From Aurantibacter aestuarii (GTDB taxonomy: Bacteria > Bacteroidota > Bacteroidia > Flavobacteriales > Flavobacteriaceae), in NCBI RefSeq assembly GCF_003008425.1, contig NZ_PXOQ01000015.1, positions 248,001-312,000 on the forward strand: DNA of 64,000 bases, read 5' to 3'. Of the stretch, positions 32,572-39,315 are shown in pieces (position 1 is the first letter of the stretch; the number at the start of each line of letters is the position of its first letter). The position numbers and the translations under genes are program-made. The notes beneath the pieces were generated by a model. The model was given only the letters and a program-made list of their open reading frames with translations. It did not search any database and was not told the DNA's origin.

Positions 32572-33639
32572 ATGAAAGTAGCCTTAGTTACAGGAGTAAA
32601 CGGACAGGATGGTTCGTATTTAGCCGAATTATTATTAGAAAAAGGATACATGGTACATGGTATTATACGTCGTAGTTCGACATTTAATACGCATCGTATT
32701 GAGCACTTATATATAGATAACCTTTTAAAAGATCAACATAAAAACCAAAACATCAAATTGCATTATGGCGATATGACCGATGGTTCTAATTTAATTCGTT
32801 TGGTTCAGGAAACACAACCGGACGAAATTTATAATTTGGCGGCACAATCGCATGTAAAAGTCTCTTTTGACATGCCAGAATATACGGCAGAAACCGATGG
32901 GGTTGGAACTTTAAAGTTACTAGAAGCTATTCGAATTTGTGGCTTGACTAATAAAACACGTATCTATCAGGCTTCAACATCTGAATTATATGGTAAAGTA
33001 CAAGAAATTCCTCAAACAGAAACGACGCCTTTTTATCCACGTTCTCCTTATGGCGTGGCTAAATTATATGCCTTTTGGATTACCAAGAATTACCGTGAAT
33101 CTTACGGTATGTATGCGGTAAACGGAATTTTGTTTAATCATGAATCTGAGCGTAGAGGAGAAACTTTTGTGACCCGTAAAATTACTTTAGGAGCAGCAAG
33201 AATTGCAAAAGGTATACAAGAAAAATTATACTTAGGAAACTTAGACGCCAAACGTGACTGGGGTTATGCTAAAGATTATGTAGAATGTATGTGGTTAATG
33301 TTACAGCAGGATGTTCCTGAAGACTACGTCATTGGAACAGGCGTTCAATATACCGTAAGACGTTTTTGTGAATTGGCATTTAAAGAAGCAGGATTCGATT
33401 TAAAATGGGAAGGTAAAGCGGAGAATGAAAAAGGAATTTGTACTAAAACAGGGCAGGTCTTGATAGAGGTAGACCCTAATTATTACCGTTTAGCAGAAGT
33501 AGAAACCCTATTGGGTGATCCTACCAAAGCCAGAACTCAATTAGGCTGGAATCCACAAAAAACTTCATTTGAAGACTTAGTTAAAATTATGGTGCAACAT
33601 GATTTAGACTATGTAGTCAATTATAAAAACACCTATTAA
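32572..33639 (+). CDS. gmd: GDP-mannose 4,6-dehydratase
   Basis: A 355-residue extended SDR that converts GDP-D-mannose to GDP-4-keto-6-deoxy-D-mannose. The NADP site is [20 protein letters not shown] and the subsequent [19 protein letters not shown] is diagnostic for Gmd. The active site is [18 protein letters not shown] with YGVAK as the YxxxK pair (about residue 157-161); [17 protein letters not shown] follows. The length is usual. It overlaps the next gene by one base. It supplies the shared intermediate for both fucose and colitose. Confidence 0.96.
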
Positions 33640-34565
33640 TGAAAATTTTCTTAACAGGTAATACTGGCATGGTTGGAAAGAATATTTTGGAGCATGCAAA
33701 AGCTTCAGAACATACATTTTTAACACCATTACGTCAAGACTTAAATTTAGAAGACAAGGAAGCGGTAAACGCCTATGTTAAAACCCATCAGCCGGATTTA
33801 ATTATTCATGCAGCTGGATTGGTTGGCGGCATTCAGGCAAATATGGCTCATCCGGTTAATTTTCTGGTTAAGAATTTAGATATTGGTCGTAACGTTATTA
33901 TGGCTGGACAGCAAAATAGGGTTAAGCAAGTACTTAATTTGTCAAGCTCTTGTATGTATCCGCGTTTGGCTCAAAATCCGTTACAGGAAGAGTTAATTTT
34001 AAAAGGTGAATTAGAGCCTACTAATGAAGGATATGCCTTAGCAAAGATAGTATCTACGCGTTTATGTGAGTATATCAATTCTGAAGACGATTTTTTTCAG
34101 TACAAAACCATTATTCCATGTAATTTATATGGCAGGCATGACACCTTTTCTCCACAACATTCGCATATGATTCCTGCGGTAATTAAAAAGATACACGATG
34201 CTAAAATAACCAATGACGCATCCGTTGGTATTTGGGGCACCGGAGAAGCCAGACGTGAATTTATGTTTGCTGAAGATTTAGCCGATTTTATATTTTATGC
34301 ACTGGAACATTTTTCAGACTTGCCACAAAACACCAATGTGGGTTTAGGTAAAGACTGGACCATAAACGAATACTATCAAACGATTGCCAAGGTTATAGGT
34401 TATACAGGTGAATTTATTCATGACACCTCAAAACCAACCGGCATGATGCAAAAACTAATAGACGACACCAAACTTAAAGCATTTGGCTGGCAAGCACAAA
34501 CGTCTTTAGAAGAAGGTATTGCAAAGACCTACGAATTTTATAAAAACACTGTTTTAAATGACTAA
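33639..34565 (+). CDS. GDP-L-colitose synthase or GDP-L-fucose synthase (ColC/Fcl family)
   Basis: A 308-residue SDR epimerase/reductase. The NADPH site is FLTGNTGMVGKNILEHAK; catalytic residues lie in LSSSCMYPRLAQNP and YALAK (YxxxK). LEPTNEGYALAK and NLYGRHDTFSPQHSHMIPA are shared by Fcl and its relative ColC. Fcl makes GDP-L-fucose from the Gmd product; ColC makes GDP-L-colitose from the ColD product by the same 5-epimerisation and 4-reduction. The gene is locked between gmd and colD, overlapping both by 1 and 8 bases, so ColC is the better guess. Motifs alone do not separate the two. Confidence 0.75.
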   Translation: MKIFLTGNTGMVGKNILEHAKASEHTFLTPLRQDLNLEDKEAVNAYVKTHQPDLIIHAAGLVGGIQANMAHPVNFLVKNLDIGRNVIMAGQQNRVKQVLNLSSSCMYPRLAQNPLQEELILKGELEPTNEGYALAKIVSTRLCEYINSEDDFFQYKTIIPCNLYGRHDTFSPQHSHMIPAVIKKIHDAKITNDASVGIWGTGEARREFMFAEDLADFIFYALEHFSDLPQNTNVGLGKDWTINEYYQTIAKVIGYTGEFIHDTSKPTGMMQKLIDDTKLKAFGWQAQTSLEEGIAKTYEFYKNTVLND

Positions 34566-35718
34566 ATATCCACTAGCAACGTCAACTTGGGACGATAAAG
34601 AAATTGAAGCCATCAATACCGTAATTGCTTCAGACATGTACACCATGGGTAAACATGTACAGCAGTTTGAAGAAGAATTTTCAGACTTTGTGGGTTCTAA
34701 ATATAGTGTTATGGTTAATTCGGGCTCATCGGCTAATTTATTAGCAGTAGCCGCTTTGTTTTACACCAAAAACCCTAAAATTAAGCGAGGCGATGAGGTT
34801 ATTGTTCCTGCAGTCTCTTGGTCTACAACGTATTACCCTTTATACCAATATGGGTTAAAATTAAAATTTGTGGATGTGGATTTACACACCCTTAATTTTG
34901 ATTTGGAGCAGTTGGAACAAGCCATTACTAAAGATACTAAGATGATTATGGCTGTGAATTTGTTAGGAAACCCTAATGACTTTGATGCTATAAACGCACT
35001 TATAAAAGATACCGATATTGTTTTGGTGGAAGATAATTGTGAGTCTATGGGTGCCGAGTTTAACGGGAAACAAGCTGGAACTTTTGGAGTTATGGGAACG
35101 TTTTCAACGTTTTTCTCTCACCATATGGCCACTATGGAAGGCGGATTGGTAGTAACCGACGATGAAGAGTTATACCACGTCCTAATTGCGTTGCGTGCAC
35201 ATGGATGGACGCGTCATCTACCTAAAGAAAATAAAGTAGCAAATAAAAGCGACGATTGGTTTACGGAATCTTTTAGGTTTGTTTTACCAGGATATAATGT
35301 AAGACCTGTAGAAATGTCTGGCGCTATTGGCGTACAACAATTAAAAAAATTACCAGATTTTCTAGAAAAACGTCGTGAGAATGCGTTGTTATTTCAAGAA
35401 TTATTTAAAAATCACCCCGATTTTTATATCCAAAAAAACATTTCAAATAGTAGCTGGTTTGGGTTTAGTTTAATTATTAAGCCGGAATCTAAATTACAAC
35501 GAAATGATGTGGTTAAATTATTAACGGATCATCATATTGATTGTCGCCCTATAGTTACAGGTGATTTCACTAAAAATGAGGTGCTAAAATACTTCGATTA
35601 TGAGATTCATGGCGAAATGAAAAATGCCAAATATTTAGACACACATGGGTTGTTTGTTGGTAATCATCAAATTCCTTTAAAGGAGGAAATTAAACATTTG
35701 CATAAGGTATTGTCGTAA
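34558..35718 (+). CDS. colD: GDP-4-keto-6-deoxy-D-mannose 3-dehydratase (ColD)
   Basis: A 386-residue member of the DegT/DnrJ/EryC1 fold that is not an aminotransferase. The PLP-binding lysine is replaced by histidine: FSTFFSHHMATMEGG places His at residue 188, the same number as the catalytic His188 of E. coli ColD. PLATSTWDDKEIEAIN at the N-terminus, VPAVSWSTTYYPLYQYGLK and RAHGWTRHLPKENKV also match ColD as I remember it. The enzyme uses PMP and glutamate to remove the C3 hydroxyl, the step that makes a 3,6-dideoxyhexose. It overlaps the upstream gene by eight bases. Confidence 0.9.
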   Translation: MTKYPLATSTWDDKEIEAINTVIASDMYTMGKHVQQFEEEFSDFVGSKYSVMVNSGSSANLLAVAALFYTKNPKIKRGDEVIVPAVSWSTTYYPLYQYGLKLKFVDVDLHTLNFDLEQLEQAITKDTKMIMAVNLLGNPNDFDAINALIKDTDIVLVEDNCESMGAEFNGKQAGTFGVMGTFSTFFSHHMATMEGGLVVTDDEELYHVLIALRAHGWTRHLPKENKVANKSDDWFTESFRFVLPGYNVRPVEMSGAIGVQQLKKLPDFLEKRRENALLFQELFKNHPDFYIQKNISNSSWFGFSLIIKPESKLQRNDVVKLLTDHHIDCRPIVTGDFTKNEVLKYFDYEIHGEMKNAKYLDTHGLFVGNHQIPLKEEIKHLHKVLS

Positions 35719-35784: not shown

Positions 35785-36939
35785 ATGAAAAAGATTGGCT
35801 TTATTCCTCTACGAAAAGGTTCAAAAGGAATTCCCGGAAAAAACAAACGTAAAATGGTGGGACGACCATTGTTTACCTGGGTTTTGGGTGCGGCTTATTT
35901 TTCAGATTTAGATGAGGTTATAGTGTATACCGATGATGAAACGATTATTAATTTCATAGAGAAAGAATACCATTATACCTCAAAAATAAAAGTGGTACAT
36001 CGTCCGGAAGCTACTGCAACCGATACCGCTTCAACTGAAAGTGCTATGTTAGCTTATGCAGAACATATTCAATATGACTTTGATGTGTTTTGTTTATTGC
36101 AAGCTACATCGCCATTCACCACTTCAGAAAACATCAACGAGAGTTTAAAAAAATTAAACGAAGGTTTTGATTCTACCGTATCTGTAGTGCATACGCACCG
36201 CTTTTTATGGAATGAAGATGGCACAACAATTAATTACGATTATACTAACAGACCAAGACGTCAAGACTTTAAAGGTTTGCTAGTTGAAAATGGCGCTGTT
36301 TATACTTGTACCAAATCTGTTTTAAAAAACAAGCAAAACCGATTAGGAGATAAAGTGGCAGTTGTTAAAATGCCAGAAGATAGTTTATTAGAAATAGATT
36401 CTGAAACCGACTGGATTGCAATAGAACAACTTTTAATAGAACGCCAGCAACGAGCTAAAAGAACATCGCCACTCACTCATTTAGTGTTGGATGTGGATGG
36501 GGTTTTTACAGACGGTAGTATTACTTATACCAAAGATGGCGAGCATACCAAACGTTTCGATATGCGCGATGGTATGGGCTTAGAAATTTTGCGTCAGTTT
36601 AATATAAAAGTTATTATTATGACCAGCGAAAATTCAGAATTAGTCGCTAAACGTATGCAAAAACTTCAAATAAAGGATACCTATTTAGGTGTAAAAGATA
36701 AATTTACTTTGCTTCAAAAAATTGCCAAAGAGGACGGAATTTCATTAAGTCATTTTGCTTATATAGGAGACGATGTAAATGATCTTGCAAATATTTGTAG
36801 TGTGGGCTGGTCGTTTGCACCAAACAACGCTACCGCAATTGTCAAATTAAATGCCGATGTGGTCTTATCTAAAGACTCTGCAAATGGCGCGATTCGTGAA
36901 GCTTGCGAATTTATTTCAACGTATAATAAAAGATTTTAA
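35785..36939 (+). CDS. neuA: Bifunctional CMP-nonulosonate synthetase/HAD phosphatase
   Basis: A 384-residue fusion. Residues 1-225 are a NeuA-type cytidylyltransferase with IPLRKGSKGIPGKNKRKMVG for CTP binding, VFCLLQATSPFTT, and RRQDFKGLLVENGAVY. Residues about 228-384 are a KdsC-like HAD domain: LVLDVDGVFTDGSI (nucleophile Asp about 236), the threonine of IIMTSEN, and AYIGDDVNDL. The phosphatase would dephosphorylate a 9-phosphorylated (or 8-phosphorylated) nonulosonate and the other half would activate it as the CMP sugar. The same fusion occurs in animal CMAS, where the HAD part is inactive; here DxD, Thr, Lys-region and GDDxND are all intact. Confidence 0.85.
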   Translation: MKKIGFIPLRKGSKGIPGKNKRKMVGRPLFTWVLGAAYFSDLDEVIVYTDDETIINFIEKEYHYTSKIKVVHRPEATATDTASTESAMLAYAEHIQYDFDVFCLLQATSPFTTSENINESLKKLNEGFDSTVSVVHTHRFLWNEDGTTINYDYTNRPRRQDFKGLLVENGAVYTCTKSVLKNKQNRLGDKVAVVKMPEDSLLEIDSETDWIAIEQLLIERQQRAKRTSPLTHLVLDVDGVFTDGSITYTKDGEHTKRFDMRDGMGLEILRQFNIKVIIMTSENSELVAKRMQKLQIKDTYLGVKDKFTLLQKIAKEDGISLSHFAYIGDDVNDLANICSVGWSFAPNNATAIVKLNADVVLSKDSANGAIREACEFISTYNKRF

Positions 36940-36944
36940 ATAGA

Positions 36945-37817
36945 ATGGATATTAAAAAACCATACGTTATTGCAGAAATTGGTTGCAATCACAAAGGAAA
37001 TATGGCAACAGCCAAAGAATTAATTAAAGTTGCAAAGATTTTTTGTAACGTGGATGCTGTGAAGTTTCAAAAACGTAATAATATAGAATTGTTGACCGAG
37101 GAACAATATAACGCACCACACCCCAATCCCGTAAATTCTTATGGAGATACTTATGGTGCACACAGAGAGTTTTTAGAATTTGATGTGGAGCAGCACCAGG
37201 AATTAAAAACCTTTTGTGAAGATATTGGAGTGACCTATTCAACTTCGGTATGGGATGTAACCTCTGCTAAAGAAATTGCGTCGCTTAAACCGGAATTTAT
37301 TAAAATTCCTTCAGCGTGTAATAATAATGTAGCTATGCTGGAGTGGTTATGCGAAAATTATAAAGGAGAGATTCATATTTCTACAGGAATGACTACTAAA
37401 GATGAAATAGAGGGTTTAGTAGGATTATTTTCAAAATTTAACAGAGCTAAAGATTTAGTGCTTTACAACTGTACATCGGGTTATCCAGTACCATTTAAAG
37501 ATGTGTGTCTTTTAGATATTAATATTCTTAAAGAAAAATATGGCGATAAAGTTAAACACATAGGTTTTTCTGGTCACCATTTGGGTATTGCTGTAGATGT
37601 TGCAGCCTATACTTTAGGAGCAAATATTATTGAGCGCCACTATACTTTAGACCGTACTTGGAAAGGTACAGATCATGCTGCATCTTTGGAGCCTATGGGC
37701 TTAAGAAAGTTAAGCAGAGACTTATTGGCTGTGTATGATGCTTTAAGTTATAAGCCAACAGATATTTTACCAATTGAGCAAGTACAAAGAGATAAATTAA
37801 AAAACCAGAAAGGCTAA
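36945..37817 (+). CDS. neuB: NeuB-family nonulosonate (phosphate) synthase, no SAF domain
   Basis: A 290-residue TIM-barrel synthase that condenses phosphoenolpyruvate with a hexosamine or hexose (6-phosphate) to make a nine-carbon acid. It has VIAEIGCNHKGNMATAKELI, DAVKFQKRNN, FIKIPSACNNN, HISTGMTTKDEIE and ANIIERHYTLDRTWKGTDHA. Typical NeuB has about 345 residues with a C-terminal SAF (antifreeze-like) domain; this protein stops after the barrel. The paired phosphatase domain upstream suggests a phosphorylated substrate such as mannose-6-phosphate (giving KDN-9-P) or ManNAc-6-P. It follows neuA by five bases. Confidence 0.85.
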   Translation: MDIKKPYVIAEIGCNHKGNMATAKELIKVAKIFCNVDAVKFQKRNNIELLTEEQYNAPHPNPVNSYGDTYGAHREFLEFDVEQHQELKTFCEDIGVTYSTSVWDVTSAKEIASLKPEFIKIPSACNNNVAMLEWLCENYKGEIHISTGMTTKDEIEGLVGLFSKFNRAKDLVLYNCTSGYPVPFKDVCLLDINILKEKYGDKVKHIGFSGHHLGIAVDVAAYTLGANIIERHYTLDRTWKGTDHAASLEPMGLRKLSRDLLAVYDALSYKPTDILPIEQVQRDKLKNQKG

Positions 37818-37820
37818 ATT

Positions 37821-37862
37821 GAATTATGAATTATGAATTATGAATTATGAGTTATGATTTAT
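37821..37862. repeat. Heptanucleotide tandem array (GAATTAT)
   Basis: Four perfect GAATTAT copies (37821-37848) followed by GAGTTAT and GATTTAT. It starts three bases after the neuB stop codon. This is the second of three period-7 arrays in the window placed right behind a stop. Confidence 0.92.
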
Positions 37863-37920
37863 GATTTGCGAGTCTGGATTTATGTAATTAAAAAGTTCTT
37901 GATTTTTAGATTTTTTATAA

Positions 37921-39315
37921 ATGAAGCAAAAAAAAGTATTTGTATTTTTCCCTGATGGCGTAGGACTTAGAAACTTTGCGTTTACCGATTTTAAATGGAT
38001 TGGTGAACAGATGGGATTTGATATTACCTATTGGAACAATACTGTTTTTTCTTTAAAAGACAACTTAGGGTTTAATGAGGTTAAGATAGAGAACCATCAA
38101 ATTCATCCGCTTACACCTCTCTATACACGTGCCAGAAAACGTGTAGAACTTAATGTTTCTGAACAAAAATTTAACGATCCAGTTTATCCAACCTATAAAT
38201 TTCCATTTAATTATAAAGGTTTAAAAAACACTGTAAAAAGTTTATATACAAGGCTTTTAATAGCCCAGTATAATTCTGAAAAAGGAGTAGAACGTATAAG
38301 GGCAAAAATAAACGCTTTAGAACGTAAAAACCCTAAATACACCTACTGTAAAGCACAGTTACAAGAACATCAACCCGATTTGGTATTTTGTACTACGCAA
38401 CGTGCTACGCAATCCATTTCAGCCTTGTTAGCCGCAAAAGATTTAGGCATACCAACCGCAGCTTTTGTGTATTCTTGGGACAATGTACCGAAAGCTATGC
38501 AAGTGGTGGAAACGGACTATTACTTTGTGTGGAGCGAGCATATGAAACGCGAAGTGCTGCAATACTATCCGTTTGTAAAAGAAAATCAGGTATTTGTAAC
38601 AGGAACCCCACAATTTGAACCCCATTTTGACAACAGTTTAATTAAGTCTAGAGACACTTTTTTTGCTGAAAACAATTTAGACGTTAATAAAAAATACATC
38701 TGTTTTTCTGGTGACGATGAAACCACATCGCCATTAGATCAGTATTATTTAGAAGATTTAGCTATAGCTGTTAGAAGTTTAAATGCTAAAGGCGAAAATT
38801 TAGGTATTATTTACAGAAAGTGTCCTGTAGATTTTACAACGCGATACGATAAAGTTGTGAAAGATTATAGTGATGTTATTGTTAAAATAGATCCTATCTG
38901 GAAACAAGTAGGCAGCCAGTGGAACCAAGTTTTACCAGCTAAAGAAGATTTTGAGATGCTGGTTAACGTCTGTTATCATTCCGAAATGGTTACTAATGTG
39001 TGTTCTAGTACCGTTTTTGACTTTGTAGCGCATAACAAGCCTTGTATTTATTATAATTACGAACAACCACAGCTTAAAAAAGGGATTCGTGATATTGGGC
39101 AGAACTACAAATATGTACATTTCAGGTCTATGCCTACTAAAGAGGCGGCAGTTTTTTGTGAAACTAAATCTCAATTAGAAGCTAAAGTAAAAGCGGTTTT
39201 AGACGGTACATTAACTAACGTCCCAGTTGGAAAAGAATGGTTTAAAGTTATTGCAGGTGTAACACCAGACGCTTCTTCTAAAAAGATTTGGGAAACAATT
39301 AAATCTATAATTTAA
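37921..39315 (+). CDS. Putative GT-B glycosyltransferase, possible nonulosonate transferase
   Basis: A 464-residue soluble protein starting KKVFVFFPDGVGLRNFAFTD. Two Rossmann-like halves are suggested: the first ends near LLAAKDLGIPTAAFVYSWDN, the second holds ICFSGDDETTSPLDQY and VCSSTVFDFVAHNKPCIYYN (about residue 362-381). The last motif resembles the donor region of CDP-glycerol and other GT-B transferases. I do not recognise a numbered family. Its place directly behind neuA-neuB makes it the best positional candidate for the CMP-sugar-using transferase, but that is inference. Confidence 0.55.
   Translation: MKQKKVFVFFPDGVGLRNFAFTDFKWIGEQMGFDITYWNNTVFSLKDNLGFNEVKIENHQIHPLTPLYTRARKRVELNVSEQKFNDPVYPTYKFPFNYKGLKNTVKSLYTRLLIAQYNSEKGVERIRAKINALERKNPKYTYCKAQLQEHQPDLVFCTTQRATQSISALLAAKDLGIPTAAFVYSWDNVPKAMQVVETDYYFVWSEHMKREVLQYYPFVKENQVFVTGTPQFEPHFDNSLIKSRDTFFAENNLDVNKKYICFSGDDETTSPLDQYYLEDLAIAVRSLNAKGENLGIIYRKCPVDFTTRYDKVVKDYSDVIVKIDPIWKQVGSQWNQVLPAKEDFEMLVNVCYHSEMVTNVCSSTVFDFVAHNKPCIYYNYEQPQLKKGIRDIGQNYKYVHFRSMPTKEAAVFCETKSQLEAKVKAVLDGTLTNVPVGKEWFKVIAGVTPDASSKKIWETIKSII

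Follow-up and report, generated by a model that had tools for sequence, protein, structure and literature searches.

We analysed a stretch of 64,000 nt of the genome of Aurantibacter aestuarii, a flavobacterium of marine type (contig NZ_PXOQ01000015.1, positions 248,001 to 312,000 of the forward strand; hereafter the window), in which a surface-polysaccharide gene cluster contains two adjacent open reading frames (ORFs) predicted to produce an activated nonulosonic acid. Both lie on the + strand with a gap of 5 bases between them. The first (35785–36939) encodes a fusion protein of 384 aa, annotated from Pfam, NCBIfam and structure matches as a CMP-nonulosonate, probably CMP-KDN (KDN, 2-keto-3-deoxynononic acid), synthetase joined to a nonulosonate-9-phosphate phosphatase. 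The second (36945–37817) encodes a NeuB protein of 290 aa without a SAF domain, which Pfam, a structural model and a fold search mark as a putative KDN-9-phosphate synthase. The genome of the window (G000) has a completeness of 99.97%, and the loci compared with it are labelled by L-numbers. A preliminary description of the locus, made from the sequence alone, had read it as a CMP-nonulosonate synthetase fused to an intact HAD phosphatase and paired with a SAF-less synthase, and the profile and fold searches bear out these assignments.

In the fusion protein, Pfam detects CTP_transf_3 (PF02348, 66.1 bits) at residues 5–137 and Hydrolase_3 (32.9 bits) at residues 305–368. A CTP_transf_3 domain (residues ~1–225; 35785–36459) is followed in one chain by a HAD domain of the KdsC/BT1713 type (residues ~226–384; 36460–36936), an architecture shared with vertebrate CMAS. 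Both the domain and the fold of a CMP-acylneuraminate synthetase are present in the N-terminal half: the top match of the fusion both by fold and by sequence, and for the synthetase half the nearest relative with a solved structure, is PDB entry 9t4z, "Crystal structure of PpNeuA CMP-Kdn synthetase" (42% identity over 222 columns, Foldseek). The AlphaFold models of the fusion and of NeuB have mean pLDDT values of 89.0 and 83.5, respectively.

NCBIfam places residues ~233–381 of the fusion in the KdsC/KDN-9-phosphatase group. The match to the KdsC subfamily TIGR01670 (132.4 bits) exceeds its cut-off of 106.95, in a subfamily so broad that the match does not settle between a C8 and a C9 substrate. 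The catalytic motifs DVDGVFTDG and GDDVND had been read as intact, and this holds beyond the window: D236, D238, K306, D329 and D330 are present and identical in 42 of 42 flavobacterial homologues (D236-V-D238 codons at 36490–36498; GDDVND, residues 328–333, at 36766–36783). We take GDDVND to be the Mg-binding loop of the HAD fold. Two further residues, E282 (36628–36630) and K293 (36661–36663), correspond by residue comparison to Glu56 and Lys67 of BT1713, the KDN-9-phosphate phosphatase of Bacteroides thetaiotaomicron, which are presumably a substrate-binding pair. PDB entries 4hgq (BT1713 E56A) and 4hgr (BT1713 E56A and K67A) indicate that these residues have already been probed by others; the literature matches listed include no relevant paper on their roles. 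Glu and Lys occupy these positions in all 60 HADs compared, a set made up of the window protein, the 42 flavobacterial fusions (of which that in L003 lacks an adjacent NeuB), 3 further fusions, 6 free-standing proteins of the BT type and 8 members of another NeuB-linked class. The KdsC-like protein encoded elsewhere in G000 (on contig C6) has Gly/Gly at the two positions, and the HAD relatives from Legionella have Ser/Gln in 11 of 11 cases.

The sole Pfam match of the second ORF is NeuB (PF03102), with 219.4 bits against a cut-off of 22.1. A SAF domain gives no Pfam match in the 290 residues, and the ORF stops where SAF starts in the homologue of L001; only 103 bases separate it from the next gene and therefore no SAF-coding stretch has been overlooked downstream. 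The NeuB model is fitted best by structures of NeuB, PseI and spsE (VIA-align Z 24.1–25.4, rmsd 2.6–3.3 over 230–249 residues), and DAHP and KDO8P synthases rank lower (Z 18.6 and below). The N-acetylneuraminate synthase equivalog TIGR03569 scores 192.9 bits, below its cut-off of 399.65. In the meningococcal enzyme, Arg314 of the SAF domain positions the N-acetyl group of N-acetylmannosamine (ManNAc), and Gln55 lines the active site, according to the portion of PMC6795526 available. A missing SAF domain thus fits a substrate without an N-acetyl group. Position 43 of the window protein, a lysine, immediately follows the residue aligned to Gln55.

We compared the presence of SAF and of basic residues with the presence of a neighbouring phosphatase in 149 Bacteroidia NeuB loci among the matches listed, reduced to 148 after the incomplete locus L158 was dropped. 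A KdsC-like HAD was counted if it lay at most 1.5 kb from NeuB, and SAF was scored as a C-terminal tail of at least 50 residues; in a spot check PF08666 was found in 6 of 6 SAF-length NeuBs scanned and in 0 of 2 short ones. A HAD accompanies 11 of the 16 NeuBs without a SAF-length tail versus 6 of the 132 with one. For residue 74 the separation is 17/23 with a basic residue versus 0/125 without (Fisher 1e-17, ancestry ignored), and none of the 124 NeuBs combining a SAF-length tail with a non-basic residue 74 has a HAD within this distance. A scan of all alignment columns likewise returned positions 43 and 74 as the cleanest group separators among basic residues, with a comparison set that had been picked for the absence of a basic residue 74, its zero at this position being given by construction. 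Basic residues at 43, 44 and 74 occur together in 17/17 HAD-linked NeuBs versus 5/131 others; among these five, the HAD lies farther away in L260 (1.7 kb) and L264 (2.5 kb), and none is seen in the stretch available for L214, L217 and L222. By these counts the basic triplet is a sharper marker of the presumed phosphorylated route than loss of SAF. We propose that K43 and R44 (codons 37071–37076) and R74, which together with H73 belongs to the motif TYGAHR (H73-R74 codons 37161–37166), form a 6-phosphate site, a signature derived from the column comparison of NeuBs. The suggestion in the preliminary description that a missing SAF domain signals a phosphorylated route needs amending: as a sole marker it fails, given the six HAD-linked NeuBs with a SAF-length tail. 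Loss of SAF is not required for the phosphorylated route, since a SAF-bearing, HAD-linked class exists (PF08666 in 5 of 5 scanned). We therefore dropped it as the only marker in favour of the basic residues, which track the neighbouring HAD better.

Several further NeuB types were observed alongside. G000 encodes a second NeuB (G000:C4:396675-397391; L001, L156) of 338 aa, a conventional protein with SAF and without the basic signature. A second SAF-less class, with KFQKRTP and WGxMxYIxYK-like motifs, lies beside KdsC-like HADs in L216, L218–L221 and L224–L226; these HADs carry the same Glu/Lys pair, and in L226/L082 HAD and NeuB of this class are fused in one protein of 475 aa. The NeuB proteins of L211 and L213 (630–637 aa) extend ~345 residues beyond the end point of the window NeuB and possibly resemble a Serratia NeuB with a COG1082 domain.

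The preliminary description had suggested searching genomes for the fusion, and the search located it in 42 flavobacterial loci, in other Bacteroidota and on Sinorhizobium megaplasmids. Six peptide patterns from the fusion, scanned against genome contigs, returned 53 loci, namely 42 flavobacterial fusions (52–85% identity) and 11 HAD-only loci of Legionella; such patterns favour close relatives, and the counts are no census. In 41 of the 42 flavobacterial loci a short NeuB that is more than 60% identical comes after the fusion, at most 1841 bases away, overlapping it or starting within 20 bases in 34 of the 41, and the motifs KFQKR and [TS]YG.HR are found in all 41 of these NeuBs. The remaining locus, L003, lies on a contig that belongs to a metagenome-assembled genome. 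With homologues of the fusion in 42 loci and a short NeuB beside 41 of them, a chance or assembly join is ruled out. Among 296 genomes drawn from the phylum Bacteroidota, 10 encode a short NeuB (E up to 1e-60): the NeuA-HAD fusion adjoins in 8, a separate HAD lies ~2.5 kb away in G242, and the stretch available for G418 contains no fusion. A search of plasmids with NeuB at 1e-40 matched 11 of 72,556 records, 5 of which were inspected. One record from S. meliloti and two from S. fredii show NeuB (~63% identity) followed by a NeuA-HAD fusion of 389 aa, and two Rhodobacterales plasmids with a NeuB match show no fusion within a 12.9-kb stretch. Phage records gave no match to NeuB at E 1e-30.

Eighteen contigs filed as viral in IMG/VR (L096–L113, 5.5–395 kb) encode NeuB relatives of 38–69% identity, all 18 with a TY..HR-like motif; L097 and L101 also carry a NeuA-HAD fusion, and in L098 NeuA is adjoined, by inspection, by KdsA-like, ColD-like and reductase genes. 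These contigs are either phages or misfiled bacterial DNA.

The substrate was addressed through the precursor enzymes that the genomes encode. Profile searches of G000 returned no NanE above cut-off and no AGE match. The sole and marginal PF02350 epimerase match (29.8 versus 30.6 bits) is a Glyphos_transf-family protein (88.7 bits) and was rejected, in agreement with the earlier statement that no NeuC-type epimerase is present. G000 does encode a type I phosphomannose (mannose-6-phosphate) isomerase (50.5 bits). We extended the searches to 20 genomes, G000 and 19 others with the fusion and/or a short NeuB. A strong PF02350 match is absent from 10 of the 20, and 7 of these 10 also lack AGE. No real NanE is found in any of the 20; weak matches appear in 5 of the 19 others, and the one that exceeds the cut-off, by ~1 bit (L117), reads as an IMP dehydrogenase on inspection of the ORF. 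Since no ManNAc-forming enzyme was found in G000, the isomerase is present and the synthetase half is nearest to a CMP-Kdn synthetase, KDN is the likeliest product and conversion of mannose-6-phosphate to KDN the likeliest predicted chemistry, which the preliminary description had considered plausible.

We put the probability at about three in four that the two genes form the CMP-KDN module of a surface-polysaccharide cluster, converting mannose-6-phosphate via KDN-9-phosphate and KDN to CMP-KDN. The SAF-less NeuB would condense mannose-6-phosphate with phosphoenolpyruvate to KDN-9-phosphate, with the 6-phosphate held by K43, R44 and R74; the HAD half of the fusion would dephosphorylate KDN-9-phosphate to KDN; the N-terminal half would use CTP to activate KDN to CMP-KDN; and a neighbouring glycosyltransferase (candidate at 37921–39315) would transfer KDN from CMP-KDN to a capsule or O-antigen. 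The activities and the substrate are inferred from sequence comparison, as are the step order, the function of the basic residues and the transferase. The phosphorylated route as such, with a 9-phosphate intermediate, a fused phosphatase and activation by the same chain as first suggested, is well supported by the apparently intact HAD, its Glu/Lys pair and the NeuB signature. The two genes thus appear to be a real, conserved and probably functional CMP-KDN module.

A KDN pathway of B. thetaiotaomicron was reportedly described by Wang et al. in 2008. The portion of PMC6200933 available describes a route from mannose-6-phosphate to CMP-KDN for B. thetaiotaomicron and for the alga Prymnesium parvum, and the phosphatase BT1713, the synthase BT1714 and the CMP-KDN synthetase BT1715 are used there. 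B. thetaiotaomicron shares with the window the proposed chemistry and a HAD with the E56/K67 pair, but distributes over three separate proteins what the window combines by fusion. In the BT1713-like loci inspected the HAD is a protein of its own, and the NeuBs next to it, where complete, measure 344–355 aa, with SAF in 5 of 5 scanned. The P. parvum synthase accepts only mannose-6-phosphate of seven sugars tested (same portion of PMC6200933). The CTP domain of the fusion is 42% identical to 9t4z, which we take to be the synthetase of the same alga, whereas the available text reports neither a phosphatase homologue nor a fusion for P. parvum. Vertebrate CMAS likewise consists of an N-terminal synthetase and a C-terminal HAD-like domain, the latter being of unknown role and without phosphatase activity according to the accessible part of PMC8636478, which also states that such a C-terminal domain exists in "some types of bacteria". 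In contrast to this silent domain, the window HAD has its catalytic and specificity residues in place.

The Sinorhizobium megaplasmids (L274, L275, L277) resemble the window in a SAF-less NeuB of ~63% identity and the 389-aa NeuA-HAD fusion, and in L274 (S. meliloti) the pair adjoins a Capsule_synth gene and glycosyltransferases. They differ in that NeuB precedes the fusion and in the glycosyltransferases present (DUF6716 and a CST-I/GT8 protein in the case of L274). The parts of PMC7845648 and PMC9000132 available report a Kdn polysaccharide for S. fredii SVQ293, and 5-O-methyl-Kdn is named in the title of an S. fredii structure paper in the reference list of PMC7845648. By analogy, this report lends independent support to KDN, with such a pair carried by other S. 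fredii strains. In Serratia marcescens, KDN requires a NeuB that also carries a COG1082 domain, according to the available portion of PMC9000132, and therefore more than one bacterial KDN route exists. Among the literature matches listed (title and start of abstract, most subscription papers lying outside), no paper deals with the SAF-less NeuB class, with an active NeuA-HAD fusion or with KDN in flavobacterial polysaccharides, and a literature search by name found no paper for PpNeuA or BFO_1060. We conclude that the chemistry is known already and that the protein arrangement is a little-studied variant in many bacteria.

Several observations weigh against assignment of the pair to CMP-KDN synthesis. 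(i) The KDN-9-phosphate phosphatase equivalog NF058599 scores 134.5 bits on the window HAD, below its cut-off of 180, which a fused relative in L067 passes (192.7 bits). (ii) The association counts take no account of shared ancestry, no HAD lies within 1.5 kb of 6 of the 23 NeuBs whose residue 74 is basic, and four of these six (L214, L217, L222, L265) show none in the stretch available. (iii) NeuBs beside BT1713-like phosphatases are only 32–38% identical to the window NeuB, a comparison that did not include BT1714 itself. (iv) Kdn was found in another S. fredii strain than those observed to carry the pair, and KDN in Serratia, made with a NeuB of other architecture, does not demand the class seen here. 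(v) A strong UDP-GlcNAc 2-epimerase (PF02350) is present in 10 of the 20 genomes, leaving a ManNAc route open there, and AGE-family proteins occur in 3 of the 10 genomes without it.

The last point bears on the rival closest to animal biochemistry, a phosphorylated route from ManNAc-6-phosphate through N-acetylneuraminic acid (Neu5Ac)-9-phosphate and Neu5Ac to CMP-Neu5Ac. The human synthase produces Neu5Ac from ManNAc-6-phosphate and Kdn from mannose-6-phosphate (available portion of PMC7845648), and half of the genomes with module genes could supply ManNAc through the PF02350 epimerase. We nevertheless regard this route as unlikely in A. aestuarii, where the searches yield no real NeuC/WecB, NanE or AGE, the SAF domain, which in the meningococcal enzyme places the N-acetyl group through Arg314 (available portion of PMC6795526), is missing from the synthase, and the CTP domain is nearest to a CMP-Kdn synthetase. 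The signature residues, in turn, point to a sugar phosphate generally rather than to mannose, and another hexose-6-phosphate might be converted to a different nonulosonate, or KDN might be modified later, for instance to the 5-O-methyl-Kdn named in the title from the reference list of PMC7845648. That a second class of SAF-less NeuBs is accompanied by HADs with this Glu/Lys pair suggests that the route may serve several products. Besides NeuB, however, even the commonest ORF cluster reaches at most 21 of the 42 fusion loci (in the flanks available, most clusters being unannotated), and therefore no third, sugar-modifying gene accompanies the pair throughout; this explanation, too, appears improbable.

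Two further explanations were weighed. NeuB could act by the conventional, unphosphorylated route on a free ManNAc-like sugar, with the HAD half serving a structural role as in vertebrate CMAS, which shares the architecture and has a C-terminal domain without phosphatase activity (PMC8636478, available part). Conservation of the catalytic and the two specificity residues in all 42 flavobacterial fusions, and the absence of a HAD within 1.5 kb of all 124 NeuBs that have a SAF-length tail but lack a basic residue 74, render this very improbable. A Kdo-type C8 pathway is suggested by the KdsC-like fold of the HAD and by its scores, with the KdsC model passed at 132.4 bits (cut-off 106.95) and the KDN model failed at 134.5. 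It has the least to commend it, and we rejected it: G000 has its own KdsA (on C16, 369.5 bits) and the separate KdsC-like protein on C6 without the Glu/Lys pair, and the locus itself encodes a synthase of the NeuB family, not KdsA.

Beyond the CMP-KDN assignment, we tentatively suggest, as an idea more probably wrong than right, that SAF-free NeuBs with K/R43, R44 and R/K74 are a distinct and widespread class acting on sugar phosphates, that their partner is truly bifunctional and may channel KDN-9-phosphate to CMP-KDN, and that the active fusion reveals the former role of the silent C-terminal domain of CMAS. On the reading of the locus given here, a phosphorylated, eukaryote-like nonulosonate route would extend to many flavobacteria and rhizobia, a simple sequence signature would separate sugar-phosphate NeuBs from conventional ones in annotation, and a testable idea on the original role of the C-terminal domain of the vertebrate CMP-sialic acid synthetase would be at hand.

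The pair is embedded in a large surface-polysaccharide cluster, for which 19 ORFs were scanned (proteins between 14.3 and 58.9 kb). Its members include a polysaccharide export protein, a Wzc-size AAA ATPase, an ABC transporter with a Wzt C-domain, several glycosyltransferases, a Wzy_C ligase and a sugar transferase of the initiating type. The glycosyltransferase at 37921–39315 (+ strand), the candidate for transfer from the CMP-sugar, has weak family matches and no PDB match; a 32% identical relative occurs in L075, and 21 of the 42 flavobacterial loci have a close homologue in the vicinity of the pair. Eighteen other fusion loci, which are of the Maribacter-Muricauda type, have one ORF cluster directly upstream; its member in L024, the sole one scanned, scores 77.9 bits with GT52 and 40.3 bits with polysialyltransferase.

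Upstream of the fusion, 32572–35718 encodes what by inspection are a GDP-mannose 4,6-dehydratase and a Fcl/ColC-like reductase-epimerase, together with a DegT-family protein with His at the expected pyridoxal phosphate lysine site (SHHMATMEGG). We take His in place of this lysine to be a trait of ColD/RfbH dehydratases, and the three genes possibly represent a colitose pathway. In L020, too, the fusion is preceded by homologues of all three. Short AT-rich repeats (gaattatgaattatgaattatga) lie at positions 37818–37870, between NeuB and the glycosyltransferase gene.

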